The notes under the pieces: model-generated | Told to the model about the DNA's origin: nothing | Seen by the model: the letters and a program-made list of their open reading frames with translations, nothing else | Databases searched by the model: none | Position numbers and translations under genes: made by a program | Part shown: positions 10,916-23,914 of the stretch, piece by piece | Layout: every line of letters starts with the position of its first letter | How positions within the stretch are numbered: position 1 is the stretch's first letter | DNA from: Candidatus Elulimicrobium sp. | Lineage (GTDB): Bacteria > Omnitrophota > Gorgyraeia > Zapsychrales > Fredricksoniimonadaceae | Length of the DNA: 35,050 nt | Assembly: GCA_020720365.1 (NCBI GenBank) | Contig: DYOU01000013.1 | Location: forward strand, 1 to 35,050 | Direction: 5' to 3'

Positions 10916-11371
10916 TTACTCTGTCGCAACTGTTTTCTCTTGATCTAATGCGCCCTTCATTGTCCGCCAGGCAAGAACCGCACACTTAACACGGCTGGGA
11001 TATTTCCATATTCCTGAAAAAACATTTAATTTTCCAAGAATATTCTGATCCTTTTCAGGGTCAAGCTCTTTCGTAAGCAGACGATGAAATTCATTGAACA
11101 AGGCTCGCGCCTGATCAACGGTCTTTCCTTTCAACGCTACCGTCATCATTGAACCAGAAGCCTTGGAAATAGCGCATCCATCCCCCTCAAAAGAAACCTC
11201 CTCGATCACTCCTTGAGGGCTAACACGCAAATAAACGTTCAAATGATCGCCACACAATGGATTATAGCCTTCCGCAGAATGCGTCCAGGAATCAAGCTTT
11301 AGAAAGTTCTTTGGCCGCTTATTATGCTCGAGAATAACCTGCTGATAAAGTTCGTCATTATGAACCGTCAT
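10916..11371 (-). CDS. sufU: SufU-type iron-sulfur scaffold / sulfur acceptor
   Basis: The 151-residue protein has the SufU/IscU fold motifs: YNPLCGDHL (C40), GDGCAISKASGSMM (C66) and SRVKCAVLAW (C130). The long stretch between the second and third Cys (the LTKELDPEKDQN region) is the insertion that marks SufU versus IscU. SufU takes persulfide from SufS and passes it on to SufBCD. Its ATG overlaps the sufS stop (ATGA), so translation is coupled. A SufU here, with no SufE in sight, fits the SufS-SufU pair of Gram-positive-like SUF systems. Confidence 0.93.
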   Translation of the reverse strand: MTVHNDELYQQVILEHNKRPKNFLKLDSWTHSAEGYNPLCGDHLNVYLRVSPQGVIEEVSFEGDGCAISKASGSMMTVALKGKTVDQARALFNEFHRLLTKELDPEKDQNILGKLNVFSGIWKYPSRVKCAVLAWRTMKGALDQEKTVATE

Positions 11372-12591
11372 TGAAAAACTCCGATCACTTTACGTAAAGC
11401 AGCCACAAAGATATCCAACTCTTCCTTAGTATTATAAAAAGTTAATGATGCACGAGAAGTGGCCGCAAGTCCAAAAAATTTCATCACCGGCTGAGTGCAA
11501 TGATGACCCGTTCTTATCGCAACACCTTCACGATCGATCAATGTCCCCACATCATGGGCATGAATACCATCAAGAACAAAAGAAAATATCGGCGCTTTAT
11601 TAGCCGCTGTACCAATAAGCCTGATCCCCTCAACCTTTTGAAGAAGACCCGTGCCATAGCGGACAAGCTCTTTCTTGTACTCTGTAATATCCGACCATCC
11701 CAATGAATTAACATAATCAATGGCCGTTCCAAACCCTATGACACCGGCAACATTCGGAGTCCCTGCCTCAAATTTATGCGGCAGGCGATTATAAATAGTC
11801 TTATCAAAAGTCACACTCAGGATCATATCGCCTCCGCCTTGATAGGGAGGCATCAATTCTAAAAGATCCTCTTTGCCGTAAAGGACCCCCACACCTGTAG
11901 GTCCGAATAACTTATGCCCGGAGAAAACACAAAAATCAACATCCAAAGATTGAACATCAATCGGTTCATGAGAAATACCCTGGGCTGAATCCAGAACGAA
12001 GACCGCGCCAAAAGCATGCGCATCCCGAATCATTCCCGCCACCGGATTAACGGACCCCAGAGAGTTGCTCACATGAACAACAGACACGATCTTGGTGCGA
12101 TCCGACAATAATCGGCGATACTCTTCGAGAATAATCTCTCCCTTATCATTAATAGGGATCACCTTAATAACACATCCCGTAATATCACGGATCATTTGCC
12201 AAGGCACAATATTGGCATGATGTTCCATCATTGATAGAAGAATTTCATCTCCAGGCTTCAAAAAGTGACGACCATAACTTTGTGCCAGTAAATTCAACGA
12301 TTCAGTTGCACCCTTTGTAAAGATAATCTCCGAAAGGCTCTTGGCATTAATAAATCGGCGCACCTTATCCCGAGCCGACTCATACTCAGCTGTAGCCACC
12401 TCACTCAAGTAATGCACTCCCCTATGAATATTCGCTGTTCTATGACAATAATGATTATGTGTTTGAGAAATAACCTGACAAGGCTTGAAGGTAGTCGCCG
12501 CATTATCAAAATAAATAAGCGGCTTATCATCCCGCCCGCGAGCGGAAAGATTAGGGAAATCTTTCCTAACACATTCTATGTTTAAAGCCAT
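11368..12591 (-). CDS. sufS: Cysteine desulfurase, SufS type
   Basis: This 407-residue PLP enzyme releases sulfur from cysteine as an enzyme persulfide. Visible features are IYFDNAATTFKP (about residues 26-37), the MEHHANIVPWQ motif, the PLP lysine K227 in SGHKLFGPTGVGVLYG and the catalytic Cys C365 in RTGHHCTQPVM. The class II (SufS) layout is clear from the short RTGHHC loop. It lies between sufD (4 nt) and sufU (4-nt overlap). Confidence 0.96.
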   Translation of the reverse strand: MALNIECVRKDFPNLSARGRDDKPLIYFDNAATTFKPCQVISQTHNHYCHRTANIHRGVHYLSEVATAEYESARDKVRRFINAKSLSEIIFTKGATESLNLLAQSYGRHFLKPGDEILLSMMEHHANIVPWQMIRDITGCVIKVIPINDKGEIILEEYRRLLSDRTKIVSVVHVSNSLGSVNPVAGMIRDAHAFGAVFVLDSAQGISHEPIDVQSLDVDFCVFSGHKLFGPTGVGVLYGKEDLLELMPPYQGGGDMILSVTFDKTIYNRLPHKFEAGTPNVAGVIGFGTAIDYVNSLGWSDITEYKKELVRYGTGLLQKVEGIRLIGTAANKAPIFSFVLDGIHAHDVGTLIDREGVAIRTGHHCTQPVMKFFGLAATSRASLTFYNTKEELDIFVAALRKVIGVFQ

Positions 12592-12595
12592 ACGC

Positions 12596-13861
12596 CTAAC
12601 CTCTGTTTAATACTTCACGGATCACAGGATTCCTGACACGTAAAAGAACATCATCAATAAAACCGCGCACAAGCATGCTGACCGCATCTTCCCGGGCGAT
12701 CGCGCGGGTCTGAAAATAAAATAAATGTTCCTTATCAATCTGGCCAATGGTAACTCCATGAGTGCATTTGACGTCATCCGCTTGAATTTCAAGCTGAGGC
12801 TTGGTATCAACTCGACAATCTCTGCTCAACAACAGGTTCTTATTAAGCTGATATGAATTGGTACGTTGAGCTTCGGCATGAACAAAGATCATTCCGTTAA
12901 ACACCGATCGGGACGCTCCTCGCAAAACACACTTAACCAACTGATTACTTGTTGTATTTGGCACACAGTGTTCAATAAAAGTGTGTGTATCAGCATGTAA
13001 ATTACCATCAAGAACATGCAATCCATTGACACTTGCGGCGGCACCTTCTCCCTGAAGCATAACACTTAAATTATGACGGAATAACTCCGCTCCCCCCGTG
13101 GATACTAATGAACAAAAGTCTGAATCTGACTTCTGCCAAACACGAACAGATCCAATGAAAGCCGTTGAAGATGAATGCACATGCTGTTCAACATATTCAA
13201 CCTTAGCCCCTTCATCAAGACTAATATCCGTCACAGGAACATTTAAAGATGCACAACCATTCAACGAAACAAATGTCTGAAGGATGCTCACTGATGAACC
13301 TGCTTCTGCCCGTATCAAAACTCGTGAAAAAGAGGCCATTTTCGTCGTCGCTGCTACATGAATAATATGGATCAGCTCCTTTTGAGCATACCCCTGCTTA
13401 ACAGTCACGGATAAAGGATTACAAAAGGAAGCGCGATTCAAGCGGATGAAGAACTCCGAGTCATTCTGCGTTATAACCGTAAAATGCTGACGGTCAACTT
13501 CCTGAAGATTCAATGCCTCAACCCCTTCTGCTAAAACAATACCATCTGTTAAAGACTGCCACCCCGATACTTTCTCATTCGACACGATCAAATTGCAAGC
13601 CCCTTTGATCATGACCGTCTTAAGTAAATCAGAAATATCTACCGGTGGACTTTCGGACAAGATACAAGCTTTCTTCAATATCGGCTTCGGGTCTGTATAC
13701 TTCCAACTTTCCCCTTTTAAAGACGCAATATTGAAAGCTTCCAGAAAAAGATGATCCTCTCTGCGAAGTTCTTGAAGCCACGAAGGAAATACACCATCTA
13801 GCTCAGGGTCAAGCCCCGCCGATACTGAAAAGGTTCCTGAAGAAGAAAACATAAATGACAT
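12596..13861 (-). CDS. sufD: Fe-S cluster assembly protein SufD
   Basis: This 421-residue beta-helix protein forms the SufBC2D scaffold. ESWKYTDPKPIL (about residues 52-63) is the conserved N-terminal motif. The C-terminal part has SRSVFNGMIFVHAEAQRTNS, DTKPQLEIQADDVKCTHG and AMLVRGFI-like AVSMLVRGFIDDVL, with DDVKCTHG carrying the conserved Cys/His. It starts one base after the sufC stop; a second Met three codons in is an alternative start. The N-terminal half is more divergent, as usual for SufD. Confidence 0.94.
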   Translation of the reverse strand: MSFMFSSSGTFSVSAGLDPELDGVFPSWLQELRREDHLFLEAFNIASLKGESWKYTDPKPILKKACILSESPPVDISDLLKTVMIKGACNLIVSNEKVSGWQSLTDGIVLAEGVEALNLQEVDRQHFTVITQNDSEFFIRLNRASFCNPLSVTVKQGYAQKELIHIIHVAATTKMASFSRVLIRAEAGSSVSILQTFVSLNGCASLNVPVTDISLDEGAKVEYVEQHVHSSSTAFIGSVRVWQKSDSDFCSLVSTGGAELFRHNLSVMLQGEGAAASVNGLHVLDGNLHADTHTFIEHCVPNTTSNQLVKCVLRGASRSVFNGMIFVHAEAQRTNSYQLNKNLLLSRDCRVDTKPQLEIQADDVKCTHGVTIGQIDKEHLFYFQTRAIAREDAVSMLVRGFIDDVLLRVRNPVIREVLNRG

Positions 13862-13862
13862 A

Positions 13863-14615
13863 TTATTTCACCAGCCAATCGTAGCCTCGATTTTCCACCT
13901 CTAAAGCAAGCTCTGGCCCGCCTGACTTGATAATGCGGCCCTTATTAAGAATATGAACGTAATCAGGTTTAATATAATTTAATAACCGCTGATAATGAGT
14001 GATCACGATCATTGCATTCTTAGGTGTTCGCAGCTTATTAACACCTGCCGCGACGATCCTCATCGAATCCACATCCAGACCCGAATCCGTCTCATCAAGG
14101 ACAGCCACACGGGGATTTAAAACTGCCATCTGAAGGATCTCATTACGCTTTTTTTCACCACCAGAGAAATCCACATTAACCGCACGGTCAATAAACTTAT
14201 CATCCATATCCAGCACCTTCATCTTCTCATGAAGAAAAGCATCAAAATCAATAGGATCCATCTCTTCAACCCCATGATGACGACAAACCGCATTATAGGC
14301 CGCACGAAGAAACATAGATGTCGGTACCCCAGGGACTTCCACCGGATATTGAAAGGCCAAGAATACCCCTTCCTTTGCACGAACATCGGGTTCAAGTTCA
14401 AGTAAATTAACAATCCGGCCTCCAAGGTCATATTCCACCACACCGCTGTCGATCGTGTATTGAGGATTTCCTGCCAGGATCTTCGATAAAGTACTTTTAC
14501 CTGATCCATTCGGCCCCATGATCGCATGAACTTCACCGGGATTAACATTTAATGAAAGCCCTTTAAGGATCTGCGTGCCTTCGACACTTGCATAAACATC
14601 TTTAATTTTCAACAT
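13863..14615 (-). CDS. sufC: Fe-S cluster assembly ATPase SufC
   Basis: The roughly 250-residue ABC-type ATPase powers the SufBCD scaffold. The Walker A is GPNGSGKST, the signature VDFSGGEKKRNEIL is the SufC variant, and the Walker B is VAVLDETDSGLDVD, followed by the H-loop VITHYQRLL. I chose the ATG of MLKIKDVY at 14615, one base after the sufB stop, because SufC proteins normally begin there. An in-frame GTG at 14627 would overlap sufB and sits closer to GGAAGGAA. Confidence 0.95.
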   Translation of the reverse strand: MLKIKDVYASVEGTQILKGLSLNVNPGEVHAIMGPNGSGKSTLSKILAGNPQYTIDSGVVEYDLGGRIVNLLELEPDVRAKEGVFLAFQYPVEVPGVPTSMFLRAAYNAVCRHHGVEEMDPIDFDAFLHEKMKVLDMDDKFIDRAVNVDFSGGEKKRNEILQMAVLNPRVAVLDETDSGLDVDSMRIVAAGVNKLRTPKNAMIVITHYQRLLNYIKPDYVHILNKGRIIKSGGPELALEVENRGYDWLVK

Positions 14616-14616
14616 A

Positions 14617-16068
14617 TTAACCCACACTTCCTTCCAGCTTCATTTCCAATAATTTAACCGCTTCAACCGAAAACTCTAAGGGCAACGTTCGAAAAACCTC
14701 TTTACAAAAACCATTGATCACCAAGGATATGGCTTCTTCCTTCTCAAGCCCCCTGGACTGAAGATAAAAGATCTGGTCTGCGCTAATACGCGAAGTTGTG
14801 GCCTCATGTTCCATGGTCGCTGAATTATTTTGGACTTCAATATAAGGAAACGTATTTGCTGAACAATGATTACCGATCAACATGGAATCGCACTGAGAGA
14901 AGTTTCTCGCATTTTCTGCCGAAGGCATGATCTTCACCAGCCCCCGGTAACTATTATGCGCAAAATCCGACGAAATACCCTTGGAAATGATCGTACTCTT
15001 AGTATTCTTACCAATATGAATCATCTTTGTACCTGTATCTGCCAACATTTTATTATTTGTCAGCGCCACAGAATAAAACTCACCAACAGAGTTATCACCT
15101 TTTAGAATACAGCTAGGATATTTCCAAGTAATGGCGCTACCTGCCTCAACCTGTGTCCAGGAGATCTTCGAATTACGACCAGAACACTTACCTCGTTTTG
15201 TCACAAAATTATAAATGCCCCCCCGGCCCTGCTTATCGCCGGCATACCAATTTTGAACCGTCGAATACTTGATTTCTGCATCATCAAGAGCCACTAATTC
15301 CACAACCGCCGCATGAAGCTGATTTTCATCTCTGGCAGGAGCCGTACAACCTTCAAGATAACTGACATATGCTCCCTTATCGGCCACAATCAGCGTACGC
15401 TCAAATTGACCTGTCTCTTTCGCATTGATCCTGAAATAGGTCGAAAGATCCACCGGACAACGAACTCCCGGAGGGATATAACAAAAAGAACCGTCTGTAA
15501 AAACAGCACAATTAAGAGTGGCAAAAAAGTTGTCCTGATAAGGCACAACACTCCCTAAATACTTCTTAATCAATTCGGGATGTTTCTGAACAGCCTCTGA
15601 AATAGGACAAAAAATAATCCCCATCTTTTCAAGCTCTAATTGATGCGTTGTTCCGACAGAAACACTATCAAAGACCGCATCCACCGCTACACCAGCCAAG
15701 CGCTTCTGCTCACTTAATGGAATGCCCAATCTTTCAAATGTTTTAATCACTTCCGCATCAACCTCTGCCAAGGAATGGATACCCTCATTCCTTTTCTTAG
15801 GCGCAGAATAATAACGGATATCTTGATAATCGATAGGATCGTAATGAAAATTTGGCCAATGAGGCTCCCTCATCCCTTGCCAATGGCGAAAAGCCTTTAA
15901 CCGCCACTCCAGCATGAACTCCGGTTCGCCTTTCTTTGAAGAAATCAACCGCACCGTGTCTTCATTAAGGCCTTTGGGCGCAGTATCAGAATCCACTTCA
16001 GAATAAAAGCCGTACTTATAATCACCTGTTAATCCATTACTGCTGGAAGGCATCCCCGATTCAGACAT
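14617..16068 (-). CDS. sufB: Fe-S cluster assembly protein SufB
   Basis: The 483-residue SufB is the main scaffold on which clusters form. Motifs include [16 protein letters not shown] (about residues 49-64), [60 protein letters not shown] and the C-terminal [20 protein letters not shown] with [15 protein letters not shown]. The length is full. Its ATG shares one base with the rrf2 stop (TAATG), indicating coupling. Confidence 0.97.
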
Positions 16069-16466
16069 TAGAGCATCTCGCTTACTTTAATTTCTTTGAA
16101 TAACTTTACAAGCCTGGCATTCAACCTGGCCATTCCTTCTTTAAGGACGCAATGTCCTGTCCGTTCGCAATCATTCGTATCTGAAGTACATTCTGTTACA
16201 GCAATCGATCCCACAACCATCCGGCTTAAATCATACATGGACACCCTCTCCAAGTTTCCCACCAACCGATAGCCGCCATATGCCCCCTGAACTGCCTCAA
16301 GTATCCCATTCTGTGTCATAAGCTGAAGAACTCGCGATGTAGGATCAAAAGGAATATTAAACAAAGCACAAATGTCTTTTGCGGTAGACAGCTCCCTAAC
16401 CGGCTTTCTTTGCATATACTTTAATGCCGTTAAAGCATATTTAACTTTCTTATGCAACTTAAACAT
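16068..16466 (-). CDS. Rrf2-family Fe-S-sensing transcriptional regulator
   Basis: The 132-residue protein is a winged-helix Rrf2 regulator. [13 protein letters not shown] (about 7-19), the recognition helix region [20 protein letters not shown] and the wing [10 protein letters not shown] are typical. Three Cys near the C-terminus, C93, C100 and C106 (C-x6-C-x5-C), match the cluster-binding triad of IscR/NsrR-type members, with slightly different spacing from IscR. It lies inside the SUF operon it probably controls, with a palindrome at the operon promoter. I start at MFKL (16466); an upstream TTG at 16490 would overlap nfu. Confidence 0.92.
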
Positions 16467-16473
16467 TAGATCA

Positions 16474-17022
16474 TTACCCCATTTCAACAACTAATTCAGG
16501 ATCATACTGATCACGTAATACATTCTGGATCGCATATAAAGTACCCATCGCCGCATGAGGACAACAACCACAAGCACCCTGATAACTAATCGTAAGAGTT
16601 TTACCATCAAGGCTAATGATCTGGAGATCCCCGCCATCACGCTGCAGAGCTGGACGGATCGTCCCATCAAGGATCTGTTCAATCTTCTGTATATCATTGC
16701 CAAACTGTACAACCGGTTTAAGCCCGTCAGCAGCATCAAAATCAGGATTATGATCCACAATATTCTTCATAATAACATTCGTCACTTCTCGCTCAAGAGA
16801 ACTCCAATCGGCCGAACCATCCTGTGTCACTGTAATAAAATGACTCGAGAAATATACTTCCGTTACTCCTTTTAAAGATAAAATTGATGCCCCTATAACA
16901 TTCTTCCCTGCATCAGCTCCCCGCTTAAATACAGCACTATCCTTACTTTTAACTATGGTATTAAGGACAAACTTTAAAGCATTTGGATTCGGTGTCGGTT
17001 GAACTGTTACTTTCTGATCCAT
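16474..17022 (-). CDS. Nfu-type Fe-S carrier (Nfu_N plus NifU C-terminal domain)
   Basis: The 182-residue protein has two domains. The Nfu_N domain begins VQPTPNPNALKFVLNTIV (about residues 6-23). The C-terminal NifU-like domain has IRPALQRDGGDLQIISLDG and GACGCCPHAAMGTLYAIQNVL with the C-x2-C cluster site (CGCC). Such proteins carry [4Fe-4S] clusters from the SUF scaffold to targets. It is the first gene of the SUF operon, behind an AAGGAG ribosome binding site. Putting nfu ahead of the regulator means it responds to the same operator. Confidence 0.93.
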   Translation of the reverse strand: MDQKVTVQPTPNPNALKFVLNTIVKSKDSAVFKRGADAGKNVIGASILSLKGVTEVYFSSHFITVTQDGSADWSSLEREVTNVIMKNIVDHNPDFDAADGLKPVVQFGNDIQKIEQILDGTIRPALQRDGGDLQIISLDGKTLTISYQGACGCCPHAAMGTLYAIQNVLRDQYDPELVVEMG

Positions 17023-17050: not shown

Positions 17051-17075
17051 AATTAAGTTAATATATAACTTAATT
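17051..17075. promoter_or_regulatory. Perfect palindrome: likely Rrf2 operator of the SUF operon
   Basis: Arms AATTAAGTTA (17051-17060) and TAACTTAATT (17066-17075) are perfect inverted repeats around a 5-bp centre. The site covers the -10 box and the start of the spacer of the SUF promoter, the expected place for a repressor. The only candidate regulator nearby is the Rrf2 protein encoded second in the operon. Binding is inferred. Confidence 0.72.
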
Positions 17076-17088
17076 CAACGTCCGTCAA
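17060..17088 (-). promoter_or_regulatory. Sigma70-type promoter of the SUF operon
   Basis: On the minus strand TTGACG (plus 17083-17088) and TATATT (plus 17060-17065) are separated by 17 bp, close to consensus. It lies 38 bp upstream of the nfu ATG, which has AAGGAG as its ribosome binding site. The -10 box lies inside the palindrome. Confidence 0.75.
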
Positions 17089-17141: not shown

Positions 17142-17588
17142 ATGAAATTCCCTAAACGCATCGGATACAAAGTCTACTTCTTTATTTTCAGCTGGCTATG
17201 CCTCGACGGCCTTGTGTCTTTATTCACCCCGGAGGCTGATGTATATACGTATTACCACACCTTAACTACTCTTTACCCCCGCGCTTCAATCATGTACATT
17301 CTAGCTATTACAAAGTCTATCATCAACATGATCTGCCTTGTGCCATTATTCAGTTTTGCTTTCAAGAAAGATTTACATTGGGGAAAATTCTTAAGATCAC
17401 TCTTCTTCCTACGTATCGCCGCTGATCTGACAGGACAAAACTATGAATGGCAGTCCATCAAGTCTCTTTCTCATGCCGAATCACTACTCCCATTTCTTGC
17501 AGTCGGTATATGGGTAGGAATTTCTTATTTATCTTATAAAGCGCACTATATTTGCGCTTTTGAGAAAACGTCAACCATGCCAGCCTGA
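17142..17588 (+). CDS. Small multi-pass membrane protein, function unknown
   Basis: I do not recognise this 148-residue protein. It looks like a membrane protein with about three to four hydrophobic segments: residues about 11-28 (VYFFIFSWLCLDGLVSLF), 49-73 (SIMYILAITKSIINMICLVPLF), a weaker one near 86-97, and 115-135 (LLPFLAVGIWVGISYLSYKA). The N-terminus is positively charged (KFPKRIGYK). It is transcribed away from the SUF operon across about 120 bp and convergently with the nitroreductase. No usual signal peptidase site is seen. Confidence 0.7.
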   Translation: MKFPKRIGYKVYFFIFSWLCLDGLVSLFTPEADVYTYYHTLTTLYPRASIMYILAITKSIINMICLVPLFSFAFKKDLHWGKFLRSLFFLRIAADLTGQNYEWQSIKSLSHAESLLPFLAVGIWVGISYLSYKAHYICAFEKTSTMPA

Positions 17589-17654: not shown

Positions 17655-18194
17655 CTACCGCCACTTGTTCCAAAACAAACGTGCAGGATCAAACTTGTCA
17701 CGAGGTTTATCTTCACCAGTTGGATATCCAATAGCAATCACACACAATGGCATGACATTCTCAGGTATCCCCAAAGCTTCTTTAACAAAAGCTACCCGTT
17801 CAAGGCGCGGATAGGCAGCTGTCCAACAAGAACCAAGCCCCAAAGAATATGCCGCCAACAAAATATTCTCTACCGCTGCCGAACAATCCTGAACCCAATA
17901 ATCAATAGCTGTTCCACCATGAGCCTGTGTCAGATCACTGGCTACAATGATCGCATGTTTAGCTGTAATCAACATCTTTGCATACGGAAGGCCTTTTGCT
18001 AACCTAACGATCATTCCCTCGTCATCAACCGCAATAAAAAACCAGTGCCGGGTGTCTCGTGAAGAAGGTGCAGCCATTCCTGCGCGGACAAGGATTTCAA
18101 GATGGGCACGAGAAACTTGTTTGCCCGTAAAACGACGAATACTCCGTCGATTCTGAATAGCTTCAAGCACTGAATTTAAAGGCATATAATTCAT
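17655..18194 (-). CDS. Nitroreductase-family FMN oxidoreductase
   Basis: This 179-residue protein has the nitroreductase fold markers: AIQNRRSIRRFTGKQV (residues 12-27), AGMAAPSSRDTRHWFFIAV (FMN phosphate and ring contact) and AAVENILLAAYSLGLGSCW (about 105-123), ending with CVIAIGYPTGEDKPRDKFD. Family members reduce nitro compounds, quinones or flavins with NAD(P)H. The substrate is not predictable. Its ATG follows directly on the stop of the acyl-CoA synthetase gene (TAG-ATG), so the two are translated together; ATG four codons in is an alternative start. Confidence 0.9.
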   Translation of the reverse strand: MNYMPLNSVLEAIQNRRSIRRFTGKQVSRAHLEILVRAGMAAPSSRDTRHWFFIAVDDEGMIVRLAKGLPYAKMLITAKHAIIVASDLTQAHGGTAIDYWVQDCSAAVENILLAAYSLGLGSCWTAAYPRLERVAFVKEALGIPENVMPLCVIAIGYPTGEDKPRDKFDPARLFWNKWR

Positions 18195-20309
18195 CTAAAT
18201 AATAATACGCGCATCCACCGCGTACGAGCCATCTTTATTAGTGATCAAAGGATTAATATCCACTTCTTTCACATGTTGGGAAATCTTCTGAATAGCCATT
18301 AAAGTCTTAATAATTGACTCCTTATGCGCACCTTGACCTCTATAACCATCCAGAAGCTTCTTGGCCTTGATCTCACCAACTAATCGATGAGCTTCACTCT
18401 CATTAAAAGGCACGATCCGAAATGATACATCTTTTAAGACTTCAACAAATATACCGCCCAATCCAAACATTACAGCAGGACCGAATTGAGGATCCTTATT
18501 CATACCAACGATACACTGAACACCATCTACCATCTGGCACAAATTAACACCTAATAAATCAGCCTTTGGCGCATTTTTCTTTACCGTTTCCATCATTTGA
18601 GCAAACCTGGCTTTAAGATCTTCAGCATTTTTAATATTCAAGATAACGCCACCAACGTCAGACTTATGAATAATATCCACCGAAGCGATCTTCATCGCGA
18701 TCGGATACATTTTCTTCTCTTCTGCCACCTTCACCGCTTCATCTGCTGTTGTCGCAAAACCCCACTTGGGCATAGGAACACCACAAAGTTCAAGTACCTG
18801 TCGAGACTCATGTTCAAGCAGGAATGTGCGCCCTTCCCTACGAACAGCCTCGATCAATTCCAGTGCTTTAGCCGGAATTTCAGGATTCTTAACTTTTTCT
18901 TTCGGCCGTAAAGATATTTCTTTCCATGTATACAATGACTTTAACCCTGAAACAGCTTCACGAACTTCTGTCATTGCCGGAATCTGATTCTCATTGAGGA
19001 TCTGAATAGCTTGACGAGAACGCTCCCCACCTACCATAGTCACAACGATCGGTTTATTGCGTTTGACAGCATTATATTCTTCAACAATAGCCTTGGCGAC
19101 CTGCACAGGATCTGTAACAGCTGTTTCGCAATAAAGAACGATCAAAGACTTGATCTTATCTTCCGTTAACGCAATATGAACCGCCTTACGATAACTTTCA
19201 CAGCCACCGCCGCCAGTCACATCAATAGGATTCTTGGTGCTGCCAAATTCAGGCATCGTTGAACGGAACTTCTCTTCCAACCAGACAGGATCTTCCAGAA
19301 GCTTCAACCCTGAATTCTCACACTCATCGGTAGCACTCACACCAATACCACCACCATTTGTAATAATGACCGTCTCATCCCCTTGAGGCATCGGCATTGA
19401 CATAACTGTTGCCGCACCAAACGCCTGCGTGAATGTTTTAGCACGCATCATTCCCAACTGATTAAAAACAGCAGAGTAAATCTTATCTGACCCGGAAAGC
19501 GATCCTGTATGTGATGCCGCCGCCTGAGCCCCTCGCTGAGAAGAGCCGGACTTCAGGATAACCACAGGCTTACGAACCTTGGTCGTCATAAATTTACGAC
19601 CATCCTTGATGCCTTCCATGTAAATCAGAATAACACTGACATTGGGATCATCGTTAAAGTACTCAATCAGCTCTTTCTCTCCAATGTCCGCTTTATTCCC
19701 AAGACTAACTACCGCTGCAAGCCCGATCTTTTCCATCATTGTCCATCCCATCAAAGAGATAGCCAAAGCTCCGCTCTGAGAAACAAAAGCGATCTTACCA
19801 GGAGTAACATTTGTCGGTCCAAAAGAGGCATTTAAATTCGCCGGAGTATAAACAAACCCAAATGTATTCGGACCAAGTAAAGCAATATCGTTCTTATCTG
19901 CAAAGTCTTTTAATGCCTGCTCTTCTTTAACTTTCCCGATCTCAGAGAAACCTGACGTGATGATAACCGTGCCCTTAACATTCTTTTGCGCACATTCTTT
20001 CAAAACACCTTCAACTAACGGAGCAGGAACCGCAATAACAGCAAAATCCACATCTCCGGGAATATCCAATAATGACGTAAAGCAAGGAACTCCCAAGATC
20101 TCCTTTGCTTTCTTATTAATAGGATAAATCTTTCCCTTAAAACCATTCTGAACGACATTATTCAAAATCTGATATCCGACCTTACCCGGTTCCGATGAAG
20201 CACCAACAATAGCCACCGTCTTTGGATTAAAGATCTTTTTCAAGTTCTGAACTTTTACCCGAGCATCTACAGCTGAATCTCCACATTCACAACATGCTTC
20301 ACCTGACAT
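18195..20309 (-). CDS. Acetate/acyl-CoA ligase (ADP-forming), fused alpha-beta
   Basis: The roughly 704-residue protein converts acetyl-CoA (or another acyl-CoA), ADP and phosphate to acetate, CoA and ATP. The N-terminal CoA-binding Rossmann domain has TVAIVGASSEPGKVGYQILN (residues 31-50). The ligase domain has the phospho-His H267 in AASHTGSLSG. The C-terminal ATP-grasp half has YPIAMKIASVDIIHKSDVGG and VDINPLI. I start at MSGEACC (20309), which has GAAGG at good spacing; an ATG six codons earlier has none. The N-terminal EACCECG stretch is Cys-rich. It follows PFOR by about 35 bp. Confidence 0.93.
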   Translation of the reverse strand: MSGEACCECGDSAVDARVKVQNLKKIFNPKTVAIVGASSEPGKVGYQILNNVVQNGFKGKIYPINKKAKEILGVPCFTSLLDIPGDVDFAVIAVPAPLVEGVLKECAQKNVKGTVIITSGFSEIGKVKEEQALKDFADKNDIALLGPNTFGFVYTPANLNASFGPTNVTPGKIAFVSQSGALAISLMGWTMMEKIGLAAVVSLGNKADIGEKELIEYFNDDPNVSVILIYMEGIKDGRKFMTTKVRKPVVILKSGSSQRGAQAAASHTGSLSGSDKIYSAVFNQLGMMRAKTFTQAFGAATVMSMPMPQGDETVIITNGGGIGVSATDECENSGLKLLEDPVWLEEKFRSTMPEFGSTKNPIDVTGGGGCESYRKAVHIALTEDKIKSLIVLYCETAVTDPVQVAKAIVEEYNAVKRNKPIVVTMVGGERSRQAIQILNENQIPAMTEVREAVSGLKSLYTWKEISLRPKEKVKNPEIPAKALELIEAVRREGRTFLLEHESRQVLELCGVPMPKWGFATTADEAVKVAEEKKMYPIAMKIASVDIIHKSDVGGVILNIKNAEDLKARFAQMMETVKKNAPKADLLGVNLCQMVDGVQCIVGMNKDPQFGPAVMFGLGGIFVEVLKDVSFRIVPFNESEAHRLVGEIKAKKLLDGYRGQGAHKESIIKTLMAIQKISQHVKEVDINPLITNKDGSYAVDARIII

Positions 20310-20344
20310 AAAAAGGCCTTCTTTCATTTATATAAGAAATTATA

Positions 20345-23300
20345 TTAAGACTGTACCGTTTTTGCTCCTGCCGCAACCTGTGCCGCAAGCGTCTCGTAAG
20401 CTGCCCATTTCTGATCGATATCCTGCTGCCCTAACTGGATCAAACGCTCGGCCTCTGCCGGATTCGTCTTCTGAAGGATCTTAAACCTCTGCTGACGATT
20501 AGCCTCATCTTTAAAAGACATCTTAGGAGCCGCTGAATCTAACGTAAGAGGATTCTTCCCTTCTTTAATTAAAGAAGGATTATAACGGAAAAGCGGCCAA
20601 TGACCAGAATCCACAGCCATCTTCTGTTCCGTTAACCCCCCGGCCATCGTGATACCATGTGCAATACAATGACTGTAGGCAATAATCAACGATGCTCCGG
20701 GATATTTCTCAGCCTCTGTAATCGCTTTGACAGTCTGATCATCTTTTGCGCCCAAGGCAACAGTAGCGACATATACATGTCCATATGTCATCATAATACG
20801 CGCAAGGTCTTTCTTGGGTAAACACTTACCAGACGCCGCAAACTTGGCTACCGCACCTCTAGGAGTAGACTTGGAGGCCTGTCCTCCAGTATTCGAATAC
20901 ACCTCAGTATCAAGCACCATTACATTCACATTACGGCCTTGAGCTAAAACATGATCCAAACCGCCGAAACCAATATCATAGGCCCAACCATCTCCACCGA
21001 AAATCCAAACACTCTTCTTAACAAGATAATCAGCCAAAGATAATAAATGCTTCGCATCTGAACTATTAACACTGCTGATCTTCGATTTCAAAAGAGCAAT
21101 ACGTTTACGCTGTTCAAATATCAAAGCCTCTTCAGATTGATCTGCCCCAATAATAGCACTCACTAATTCAGTACCGATAACACCTTCCATTCTCTTTACC
21201 AACTCAATAGCATGAACTTCCTTCTTATCGATCGCAATACGAAAACCAAGCCCGAACTCAGCATTATCTTCAAATAAGGAATTCGACCAGGCCGGCCCCC
21301 TACCTTCATGATTCTTGCTATAAGGTGTTGTTGGAAGATTGCCCCCATAGATAGATGTACAACCTGTTGCGTTCGCGATCACCGCACGATCACCAAATAA
21401 CTGAGTAACTAGTTTGATATACGGTGTTTCTCCACACCCCGCACAGGCCCCAGAAAACTCAAACAGCGGCTGCAGAAACTGAACCCCACGTACTGTGTTC
21501 TGCTTAACTTTAGAACGGTCAACATCAGGTAAATTAAAGAAAAACTCCCAATTCCTGGCTTCCTGTTCACGAATAGGCAGGATCGGAGTCATATTGATCG
21601 CTTTTTTCGACGGATCTTTTTTGCTCTTTGCCGGACACGCGGAAACACACACACCACAACCTGTGCAATCCTCAGCAGCAACCTGAATACGGAAAAGCTG
21701 ACCGGCGAATTCCTTATCCTTTGCAGGGGCTGTAACAAACGAATCTGACGCTCCCTTCAAATTAACGGGATCAATGATCTTACTACGAATAACAGCATGC
21801 GGACAAACCATAACGCACTTACCGCATTGAATACATGTTTCTGAATCCCAAGTAGGACACTCAAGGGCAATGCAACGCTTCTCAAAACGGGTTGTACCTG
21901 TCGGATAGGTCCCATCAACCGGCATTTTACTAACAGGAAGTAGATCTCCTCGACCGGCAATGATCTCTGAAGTGATCGTCTTAACAAACTCCGTTGGATC
22001 TCCTGAAACAGGCGATTTTAACTCGATCGCACTTGTCACTGCAGCTGGAACTTTAACTTCATGAAGATTGGCTATTGTTGTATCAACAGCCTTGAAATTC
22101 TGAGCTACAACGTCCGCGCCCTTTTTCCCATAAGCCTTCTCGATCGATTTTTTAATCTGGGCAATGGCTTCTTCTCTGGGTAATACCCCCGAAATAACAA
22201 AGAAACATGTCTGCATGATCGTGTTAATACGCCCCCCCATCCCCGTCTCATGCGCAACAGCATAGGCATCGATCACATAAAACTTAAGTTTCCGGGAAAT
22301 AATATGCTCTTGCGTCACGCGTGTCAAATGATCCCATACCTGATCGGTAGAATACTGACTGTTTAATAAAAAAACTGCCCCTTCAGCAGCATCTTTAAGA
22401 ACATCATATCTCTCCAGGAAAACAAACTGGTGACACCCAATAAAATTAGCATTACCAATAAGATACGGAGCTCTTATCGGATTTGGCCCAAACCTCAAAT
22501 GAGAAAAAGTCATCGAACCAGACTTCTTTGAATCGTAAACAAAGTATCCCTGGCCATAATTTGATGTATTTTCACTAATAATCTTGATCGTAGCCTTATT
22601 TGCACCCACCGTACCGTCAGCTCCCAGGCCATAAAACAAACAACAAACGCTCTTTGGATCCTCAATAATAAAAGAATCATCAATCGTCAAGCTGGTATGC
22701 GTCACATCATCATTGATACCTACAGTAAAATGATTCTTGGGTGACCCCTTTTTCATTTCATCAAAAACAGCTTTAACCATGGCTGGTGTAAATTCCTTCG
22801 AGGATAAACCATACCGTCCGCAAATAACTTTAGGTAAACAAGAAATACGCCCTTCCTGCTGAGCTTCAAACAAAGCATTAACAATATCCTGATAAAGAGG
22901 CTCACCGATCGAACCTGGCTCTTTTGTCCTGTCAAGAACAGCAAGCGTCTTGACCGACTTTGGAAGTGCCATCACAAAATGTTTAATCGAAAAAGGACGA
23001 TATAATCGAACCACAATCAATCCAACTTTTTCACCTTTTTTAATAAGATTATCAATCGTCGTCTGAATCGTCTCACAAGAAGAACCCATGGCAACAATAA
23101 CATGCTCCGCATCCGCCGATCCATAATAATCAAACAAATTATATTGACGGCCTACAAGCTTGGCAAATTTATTCATCGTTTCTTGAACAATGTCCGGACA
23201 CTTAATATAAAACGGATTCACTGTCTCACGTCCCTGGAAATAAACATCTGGATTTTGTGCTGTTCCACGGATAAAAGGAGCATCTGGCGTAAGAGCACGA

Positions 23301-23914
23301 TTCCTATGTGCAATAACCAGATCGTCCGAGATCATTGCTTTAATATCAGATTCGTCCAGAAGTTCAATCTTAGCAACTTCATGAGATGTGCGAAATCCAT
23401 CAAAAAAATGAAGAAAAGGCACCCTTGCCTCTAAAGTTGCTGTATGGGCAATCAGGGCCATATCCATAACCTCTTGAACACTGGCTGATGCGAGCATAGC
23501 AAATCCCGTCTGACGAACAGACATAACATCAGAGTGGTCGCCGAAGATCGACAACGCTTGCGTTGCCAACGAGCGTGCAGAAACATGAAAGACAGTAGCG
23601 GTTAATTCCCCCGCAATCTTGTACATGTTCGGAATTTTCAACAATAAACCCTGTGAAGCCGTGAACGTCGTCGTCATTGCTCCTGTTTGCAACGCACCAT
23701 GAACTGTCCCTGCAGCACCTCCCTCAGACTGCATCTCCTGAATCGAAGGCACAGACCCCCAAATATTCTTTAAACCAGCCGCTGACCATTCATCCGCTAA
23801 TTCACCCATGGTTGAAGACGGAGTGATCGGATAAATAGCCGCAACATCGCTGACCCTGTAAGCAACATATGCCGCCGCTTCATTCCCATCCAATGTATAC
23901 ACCTTACGTGCCAT
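20345..23914 (-). CDS. nifJ: Pyruvate:ferredoxin (flavodoxin) oxidoreductase
   Basis: This 1189-residue homodimeric-type PFOR oxidises pyruvate with CoA to acetyl-CoA and CO2, reducing ferredoxin. Domain order: N-terminal pyrimidine-binding domain with YPITPSSTMGELADEW (residues 28-43), domain II around 260-400, an EKR-type domain with gamma-like region around 420-650, and two [4Fe-4S] motifs CIQCGKCVMVCP (about 690) and CTGCGVCVSACP (about 748). The TPP-binding domain near the C-terminus has ACAGCGETPY and GDGWAYDIGFGGLDHVLAQG (about 972-991). AAAGGGAG precedes the ATG. The enzyme is oxygen-sensitive and anaerobe-typical. Confidence 0.96.
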   Translation of the reverse strand: MARKVYTLDGNEAAAYVAYRVSDVAAIYPITPSSTMGELADEWSAAGLKNIWGSVPSIQEMQSEGGAAGTVHGALQTGAMTTTFTASQGLLLKIPNMYKIAGELTATVFHVSARSLATQALSIFGDHSDVMSVRQTGFAMLASASVQEVMDMALIAHTATLEARVPFLHFFDGFRTSHEVAKIELLDESDIKAMISDDLVIAHRNRALTPDAPFIRGTAQNPDVYFQGRETVNPFYIKCPDIVQETMNKFAKLVGRQYNLFDYYGSADAEHVIVAMGSSCETIQTTIDNLIKKGEKVGLIVVRLYRPFSIKHFVMALPKSVKTLAVLDRTKEPGSIGEPLYQDIVNALFEAQQEGRISCLPKVICGRYGLSSKEFTPAMVKAVFDEMKKGSPKNHFTVGINDDVTHTSLTIDDSFIIEDPKSVCCLFYGLGADGTVGANKATIKIISENTSNYGQGYFVYDSKKSGSMTFSHLRFGPNPIRAPYLIGNANFIGCHQFVFLERYDVLKDAAEGAVFLLNSQYSTDQVWDHLTRVTQEHIISRKLKFYVIDAYAVAHETGMGGRINTIMQTCFFVISGVLPREEAIAQIKKSIEKAYGKKGADVVAQNFKAVDTTIANLHEVKVPAAVTSAIELKSPVSGDPTEFVKTITSEIIAGRGDLLPVSKMPVDGTYPTGTTRFEKRCIALECPTWDSETCIQCGKCVMVCPHAVIRSKIIDPVNLKGASDSFVTAPAKDKEFAGQLFRIQVAAEDCTGCGVCVSACPAKSKKDPSKKAINMTPILPIREQEARNWEFFFNLPDVDRSKVKQNTVRGVQFLQPLFEFSGACAGCGETPYIKLVTQLFGDRAVIANATGCTSIYGGNLPTTPYSKNHEGRGPAWSNSLFEDNAEFGLGFRIAIDKKEVHAIELVKRMEGVIGTELVSAIIGADQSEEALIFEQRKRIALLKSKISSVNSSDAKHLLSLADYLVKKSVWIFGGDGWAYDIGFGGLDHVLAQGRNVNVMVLDTEVYSNTGGQASKSTPRGAVAKFAASGKCLPKKDLARIMMTYGHVYVATVALGAKDDQTVKAITEAEKYPGASLIIAYSHCIAHGITMAGGLTEQKMAVDSGHWPLFRYNPSLIKEGKNPLTLDSAAPKMSFKDEANRQQRFKILQKTNPAEAERLIQLGQQDIDQKWAAYETLAAQVAAGAKTVQS

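Follow-up and report, generated by a model that had tools for sequence, protein, structure and literature searches.

The window analyzed here is one whole contig (35,050 nucleotides) of a draft genome of Candidatus Elulimicrobium sp. (Omnitrophota). Its minus strand carries the gene order nfu-rrf2-sufB-sufC-sufD-sufS-sufU, an assignment with Pfam support that agrees with the nfu-rrf2-sufBCDSU order of a preliminary description made from the letters of this DNA (Table 1). The rrf2 gene likely begins at ATG 16466 rather than TTG 16490, because its orthologues begin at that methionine. Located 28 bases upstream of nfu is a palindrome with the arms AATTAAGTTA (17051-17060) and TAACTTAATT (17066-17075), which are complementary at 10 out of 10 positions around a 5-bp spacer, confirming the perfect 25-bp palindrome (arms 100% complementary) that had been described at this site. 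On the operon strand, the dyad reads AATTAAGTTA-TATAT-TAACTTAATT, and the half-site is AATTAAGTT; position 7 is G and position 19 is C. The palindrome had also been said to cover the -10 box of a TTGACG-17-TATATT promoter. A promoter scan finds TATATT at 17065-17060, and the -10 box is therefore the dyad centre; the promoter itself has one match against 1.0 expected by chance, so that this promoter-like match alone is not significant. Perfect 10+10 palindromes with spacers of 0-10 bp occur three times in the window (0.61 expected), and those with a 5-bp spacer once (0.06 expected). When the 119-bp intergenic region was shuffled, such a palindrome arose in 0.6% of cases. A divergent ORF (17142-17588, plus strand, 148 aa), apparently membrane-bound and without a Pfam or NCBIfam match, starts 67 bp from the dyad. 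We considered control of this ORF by the dyad and set it aside; the neighbor differs in the two genus relatives that were checked. Further neighbors of the SUF operon (17655-23914, minus strand) are a nitroreductase, an ADP-forming acyl-CoA synthetase-like protein, and a pyruvate:ferredoxin oxidoreductase with 4Fe-4S domains.

Table 1. Features of the nfu-rrf2-suf locus and its upstream region (window coordinates).
Feature	Coordinates	Strand	Basis
-35 box TTGACG	17083..17088	-	promoter scan; TTGAC(G/T/A) and 17-bp spacing kept in two genus relatives with intact promoter
25-bp candidate operator dyad	17051..17075	-	perfect symmetry, conserved motif, lost with rrf2
-10 box TATATT	17060..17065	-	promoter scan; kept in genus
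nfu, operon gene 1	16474..17022	-	Nfu_N and NifU
rrf2, operon gene 2, presumed binder	16068..16466	-	Pfam, orthologue starts, three invariant Cys
sufB	14617..16068	-	Pfam
sufC	13863..14627	-	ABC_tran and gene order
sufD	12596..13861	-	SUFBD_core
sufS, class-V aminotransferase / cysteine desulfurase	11368..12591	-	profile match
sufU-like scaffold	10916..11371	-	NifU_N

The evidence that the palindrome is an operator is comparative throughout, and the gene calls in the relatives are simple ORF lists with Pfam; draft genomes give false absences. Rrf2 orthologues are present in 52 genomes of the order (one fragment included), nearly always between nfu and sufB; in some of these relatives a pterin-4a-carbinolamine dehydratase-like gene, identified by eye, lies between nfu and rrf2 (L224:3600-4110, L122). 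Taking its seeds from sequence windows, an expectation-maximisation search for palindromic 25-mers in 46 regions upstream of nfu recovered de novo a 25-bp dyad, AAATAMGTY-N7-RAMKTATTT, in all 46 of the rrf2-bearing nfu-suf operons of the order that were compared (total score 1133, against 416-428 in eight shuffled sets). The window palindrome is one version of this dyad. When the window's clade was left out of the training set, the model still gave the window site 19.3 bits, which none of 300 shuffles reached; 9 out of 10 clade members pass likewise, and the tenth (L012) is borderline, with 2 out of 300 shuffles as high. Outside the order, ten genomes, the majority with a Bdellovibrionales or related label, encode Rrf2 proteins of 33-40% identity and have dyads of equal length ahead of rrf2-suf (e.g. 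AAATAGGTTAAAAAATAACCTATTT; 0-5 out of 300 shuffles as high). The check proposed in the preliminary description, a search of related genomes for the arm pair, thus has a divided outcome: the literal pair is confined to the window's genome, where it is the sole copy genome-wide with up to 3 mismatches allowed, and what recurs in the 46 rrf2-bearing promoters is the same-length dyad. The genus relatives do not keep the perfect symmetry, which is a peculiarity of the window site and no trait of the site class, a point that the preliminary description missed.

Most genomes without an Rrf2 orthologue are also without SufB. Four of them (G004, G005, G010, and G015; L220, L221, L222, and L223) have kept nfu-sufB and are missing rrf2, and here the upstream dyad is gone: the best scores are -2.2, 3.7, -10.9, and -9.5, compared to 13.3-32.2 in the 46 rrf2-bearing operons (Fisher 4e-6; the test ignores relatedness, for which the Nfu tree accounts). 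In the Nfu tree, the four genomes stand apart, each beside rrf2-bearing relatives, and four changes are needed, at least three of which are forced by well-supported branches; the co-losses of rrf2 and dyad are therefore largely independent. That the dyad is lost in all four rrf2-less operons points to the Rrf2 protein as the binder. For an uncultured phylum, this predicts which transcription factor and which operator belong together, and natural deletions of the regulator gene that arose independently support the pairing.

The window protein, 132 aa long when counted from ATG 16466, has the Rrf2 superfamily domain (PF02082, 86.6 bits, cut-off 30; TIGR00738, 76.9 bits, cut-off 73.3) and passes none of the named equivalogs, with scores of 52.3 bits for IscR (TIGR02010, cut-off 207.55), 43.3 bits for RirA (NF008886, cut-off 193), and 65.5 bits for the SUF regulator (TIGR02944, cut-off 110.65). 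The latter, of the Xanthomonas type, is its best-scoring named family and likewise adjoins sufB, although the window protein falls under its cut-off. The C-x6-C-x5-C motif claimed for the protein is borne out by C93, C100, and C106 (numbered from ATG 16466), the three conserved cysteines of the Fe-S sensing branch, which are invariant in 16 aligned orthologues. In the same 16 orthologues a recognition-helix block, PFDxTxRV, is near-invariant. Where most Rrf2 proteins carry a minor-groove Arg or Lys, the window protein has Gln.

The arms had been described as unlike the IscR type 1 site and possibly a new site class. The E. coli IscR type 1 site is ATASYYGACTRWWWYAGTCRRSTAT (PMC3899308); it agrees with the window dyad at only 8 out of 25 positions, and the IscR consensus, when searched, does not fit. 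The difference from IscR type 1 thus holds for the letters, with GTY-N7-RAC as the core of the class, and fails for the geometry, which is that of IscR type 1 and RisR, a likeness that the preliminary description missed. With IscR type 1 the site shares the 25-bp dyad, the 10-5-10 layout, G7/C19, and control (predicted here) of its own Fe-S biogenesis operon, whereas the core is GTT-N7-AAC in the window and GAC-N7-GTC in IscR. The IscR contact residues are Ser40, Glu43, and Gln44 (PMC9973013). In contrast to the predicted regulator, IscR controls both isc and suf, and its minor-groove Arg59 is replaced by Gln60 in the window protein. We take Asp41, Ser44, and Arg45 of the window protein to align to Ser40, Glu43, and Gln44 of IscR, through an alignment with CymR. 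RisR of Myxococcus xanthus, which has isc/suf operators, represses in its holo form, has a footprinted site with the core GAC-N7-GTC over the -10 or -35 box, and carries its cysteines at positions 92, 102, and 108 (PMC9973013). It resembles the system described here in being a three-Cys Rrf2 protein with autoregulated suf control (predicted here), in the N7 between the core trinucleotides, in the AT-rich flanks, and in the placement of the site over a -10 or -35 box. It differs in its core (GTY-N7-RAC for our class, GTT-N7-AAC in the window), in its cysteine spacing (x9/x5 against x6/x5), and in its operon make-up. RirA of rhizobia, too, is an Rrf2 Fe-S repressor; its regulon combines its own gene with suf and iron uptake and resembles the one predicted here for the wider order; unlike RirA, the window protein stays below the RirA model cut-off, its site has letters unlike the IRO box, and no iron-uptake sites were found in the window's own genome. 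The RirA IRO box has the letters TGA-N9-TCA. RirA binds in its [4Fe-4S] form (PMC5863699). In the searchable literature, with most subscription journals and regulon databases outside its scope, we found no description of an AAATAMGTY-type site class and no paper linking Bdellovibrio to Rrf2, and for Omnitrophota and Rrf2 only NsrR homologues in magnetotactic bacteria; the motif may have been described elsewhere. The predicted site would widen the Rrf2 operator code, as it combines the dyad geometry of IscR and RisR with other letters and a different recognition helix.

We propose that the palindrome is very probably the autoregulatory operator of the operon-encoded Rrf2, as had been claimed from the window alone; the conservation of the dyad in 46 out of 46 operons and its loss in the four rrf2-less ones support this claim. 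An Rrf2 dimer would bind the 25-bp dyad, cover the -10 box, and thereby keep RNA polymerase off the nfu promoter. Reasoning from RisR, RirA, and IscR, we expect the Fe-S-loaded protein to be the DNA-binding form, and with a falling cluster supply Rrf2 would lose its cluster and leave the site, so that nfu-rrf2-suf is turned on. Physical binding, the type of cluster, and repression by the holo form are what we infer from these comparisons; given the three invariant cysteines in 16 orthologues and the precedent of RisR and RirA, Rrf2 probably represses when loaded with a cluster and lets go of the DNA once the cluster is lost. In the window, as in the two genus relatives whose promoter is intact, the -10 box forms the centre of the dyad. 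Relative to the best promoter match in the 46 operons, where promoter calls are consensus matches only, the dyad lies over the -10 box in 3, over the -35 box in 6, after the -10 box in 22 (mostly directly), and just upstream of the -35 box in 15. Repression by occlusion fits most of these positions, and activation is also conceivable for the last 15. We count this upstream placement in 15 out of 46 operons, together with the Gln at the minor-groove Arg/Lys position, against the operator reading.

Dyads of this kind are also found away from SUF promoters. When G/T was left free in both halves, the search pattern yielded for the most part AAATAATTT matches arising by chance; 81 genomes were then scanned with a stricter exact pattern, AWATAMGTY-N7-RAMKTATWT. 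It matched about 50 places, compared to a handful in the reversed control, and about half of these were SUF promoters. The non-SUF matches are distributed over 16 genomes and nearly all intergenic, with one more inside a coding sequence (G065). The genes behind them encode FeoA/FeoB, FTR1 with a cupredoxin-like gene, TonB receptors, Fur, an A-type Fe-S carrier (L204:1424-1448 in G035, Omnitrophota; L219:1501-1525, Bdellovibrionota-labelled, gene named by eye), sulfite reductase, Tpx-SodB, and porins; a few dyads are near genes without a clear iron link. Two tandem dyads lie at the start of the fur gene in G032 (L173:1080-1175), where the Rrf2 regulator may control Fur. Together, these sites suggest a RirA-like regulon, comprising iron uptake and suf, in relatives within the order, and this predicted regulon would add to RirA another example of an Rrf2 protein in a Fur-like role. 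In the window's own genome, a looser search matched 16 places, fewer than the 19 of the reversed control, and therefore gives no further regulon there, so that the SUF site is this genome's only good match; none of the genes inspected beside four of these loose matches is iron-related, and no non-SUF dyad was found in the 11 genomes of the window's clade.

A dyad that precedes SUF, iron-uptake genes, and a fur gene (L173) recalls a typical Fur regulon, and the site could thus belong to another iron-responsive regulator such as Fur, with Rrf2 a bystander. We consider this highly unlikely and rejected Fur as the binder of the SUF site. The dyad vanishes with rrf2 even in G004 and G005, which carry Fur-family genes, so Fur does not explain its loss, and the GTY-N7-RAC spacing suits Rrf2 sites. 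Moreover, the non-SUF sites track rrf2 and not Fur (p=1.0), and in five genomes that carry such sites no Fur hit was obtained. The association of the intergenic non-SUF sites with rrf2 presence has a raw p-value of 0.15 and one of 0.0034 post hoc, after three apparent exceptions were checked and traced to draft-genome gaps (the rrf2 of G080 has an internal run of N, the suf contig of G038 is cut at sufB, and G072 is a draft without sufB). In this corrected set, every genome with an intergenic non-SUF site either has rrf2 or does not allow its presence to be judged.

The palindrome might instead act as RNA, as a hairpin in the 5' leader that serves as an attenuator or stability element, since the leader folds at -8.4 kcal/mol with the arms paired. 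However, the z-score of this fold is only -1.68 and no terminator-like site was found, and on these two grounds we rejected a hairpin or terminator. Because the -10 box sits at the dyad centre, a transcript from this promoter would also start inside the second arm and be without the first, and in the relatives the dyad is imperfect and its place with respect to the promoter varies widely, with some copies upstream of the -35 box; this makes an RNA element extremely improbable. A chance palindrome over an AT-rich promoter would agree with the AT-richness of the region and with the lack of perfect symmetry in the genus relatives, but it has next to no probability given its rarity among the intergenic shuffles, the order-wide conservation by which it was already refuted, and the co-loss with rrf2.

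At SUF sites outside the window's clade, position 7 is G in the distal half in 36 out of 36 cases and T in the proximal half in 34 out of 36. Non-SUF sites have G in both halves in 25 out of 26 cases (the search pattern allows either letter in one half), as do 9 out of 10 SUF sites in the window's clade, which has no iron-gene sites and a symmetric SUF site. That SUF sites keep one weak half, whereas both halves are strong at iron-uptake genes, suggests graded affinity, and the weak half-site makes such grading of operator affinity directly testable. Tentatively, we speculate that an Rrf2 subfamily of Omnitrophota and Bdellovibrionota, with its own operator class AAATAMGTY-N7-RACKTATTT, could be a main iron regulator in much of the window's order, a job usually done by Fur. 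Its output would be graded by half-site quality, with two strong halves at iron-uptake sites and, at SUF, one weak half maintained by selection, through which SUF would be the first to be released when clusters become scarce; the window's clade would lack the iron-uptake branch, and its SUF site would have turned symmetric. The non-SUF dyads often form tandem pairs, about 70-110 bp from start to start (L169, L173, L181, L182, and L193).
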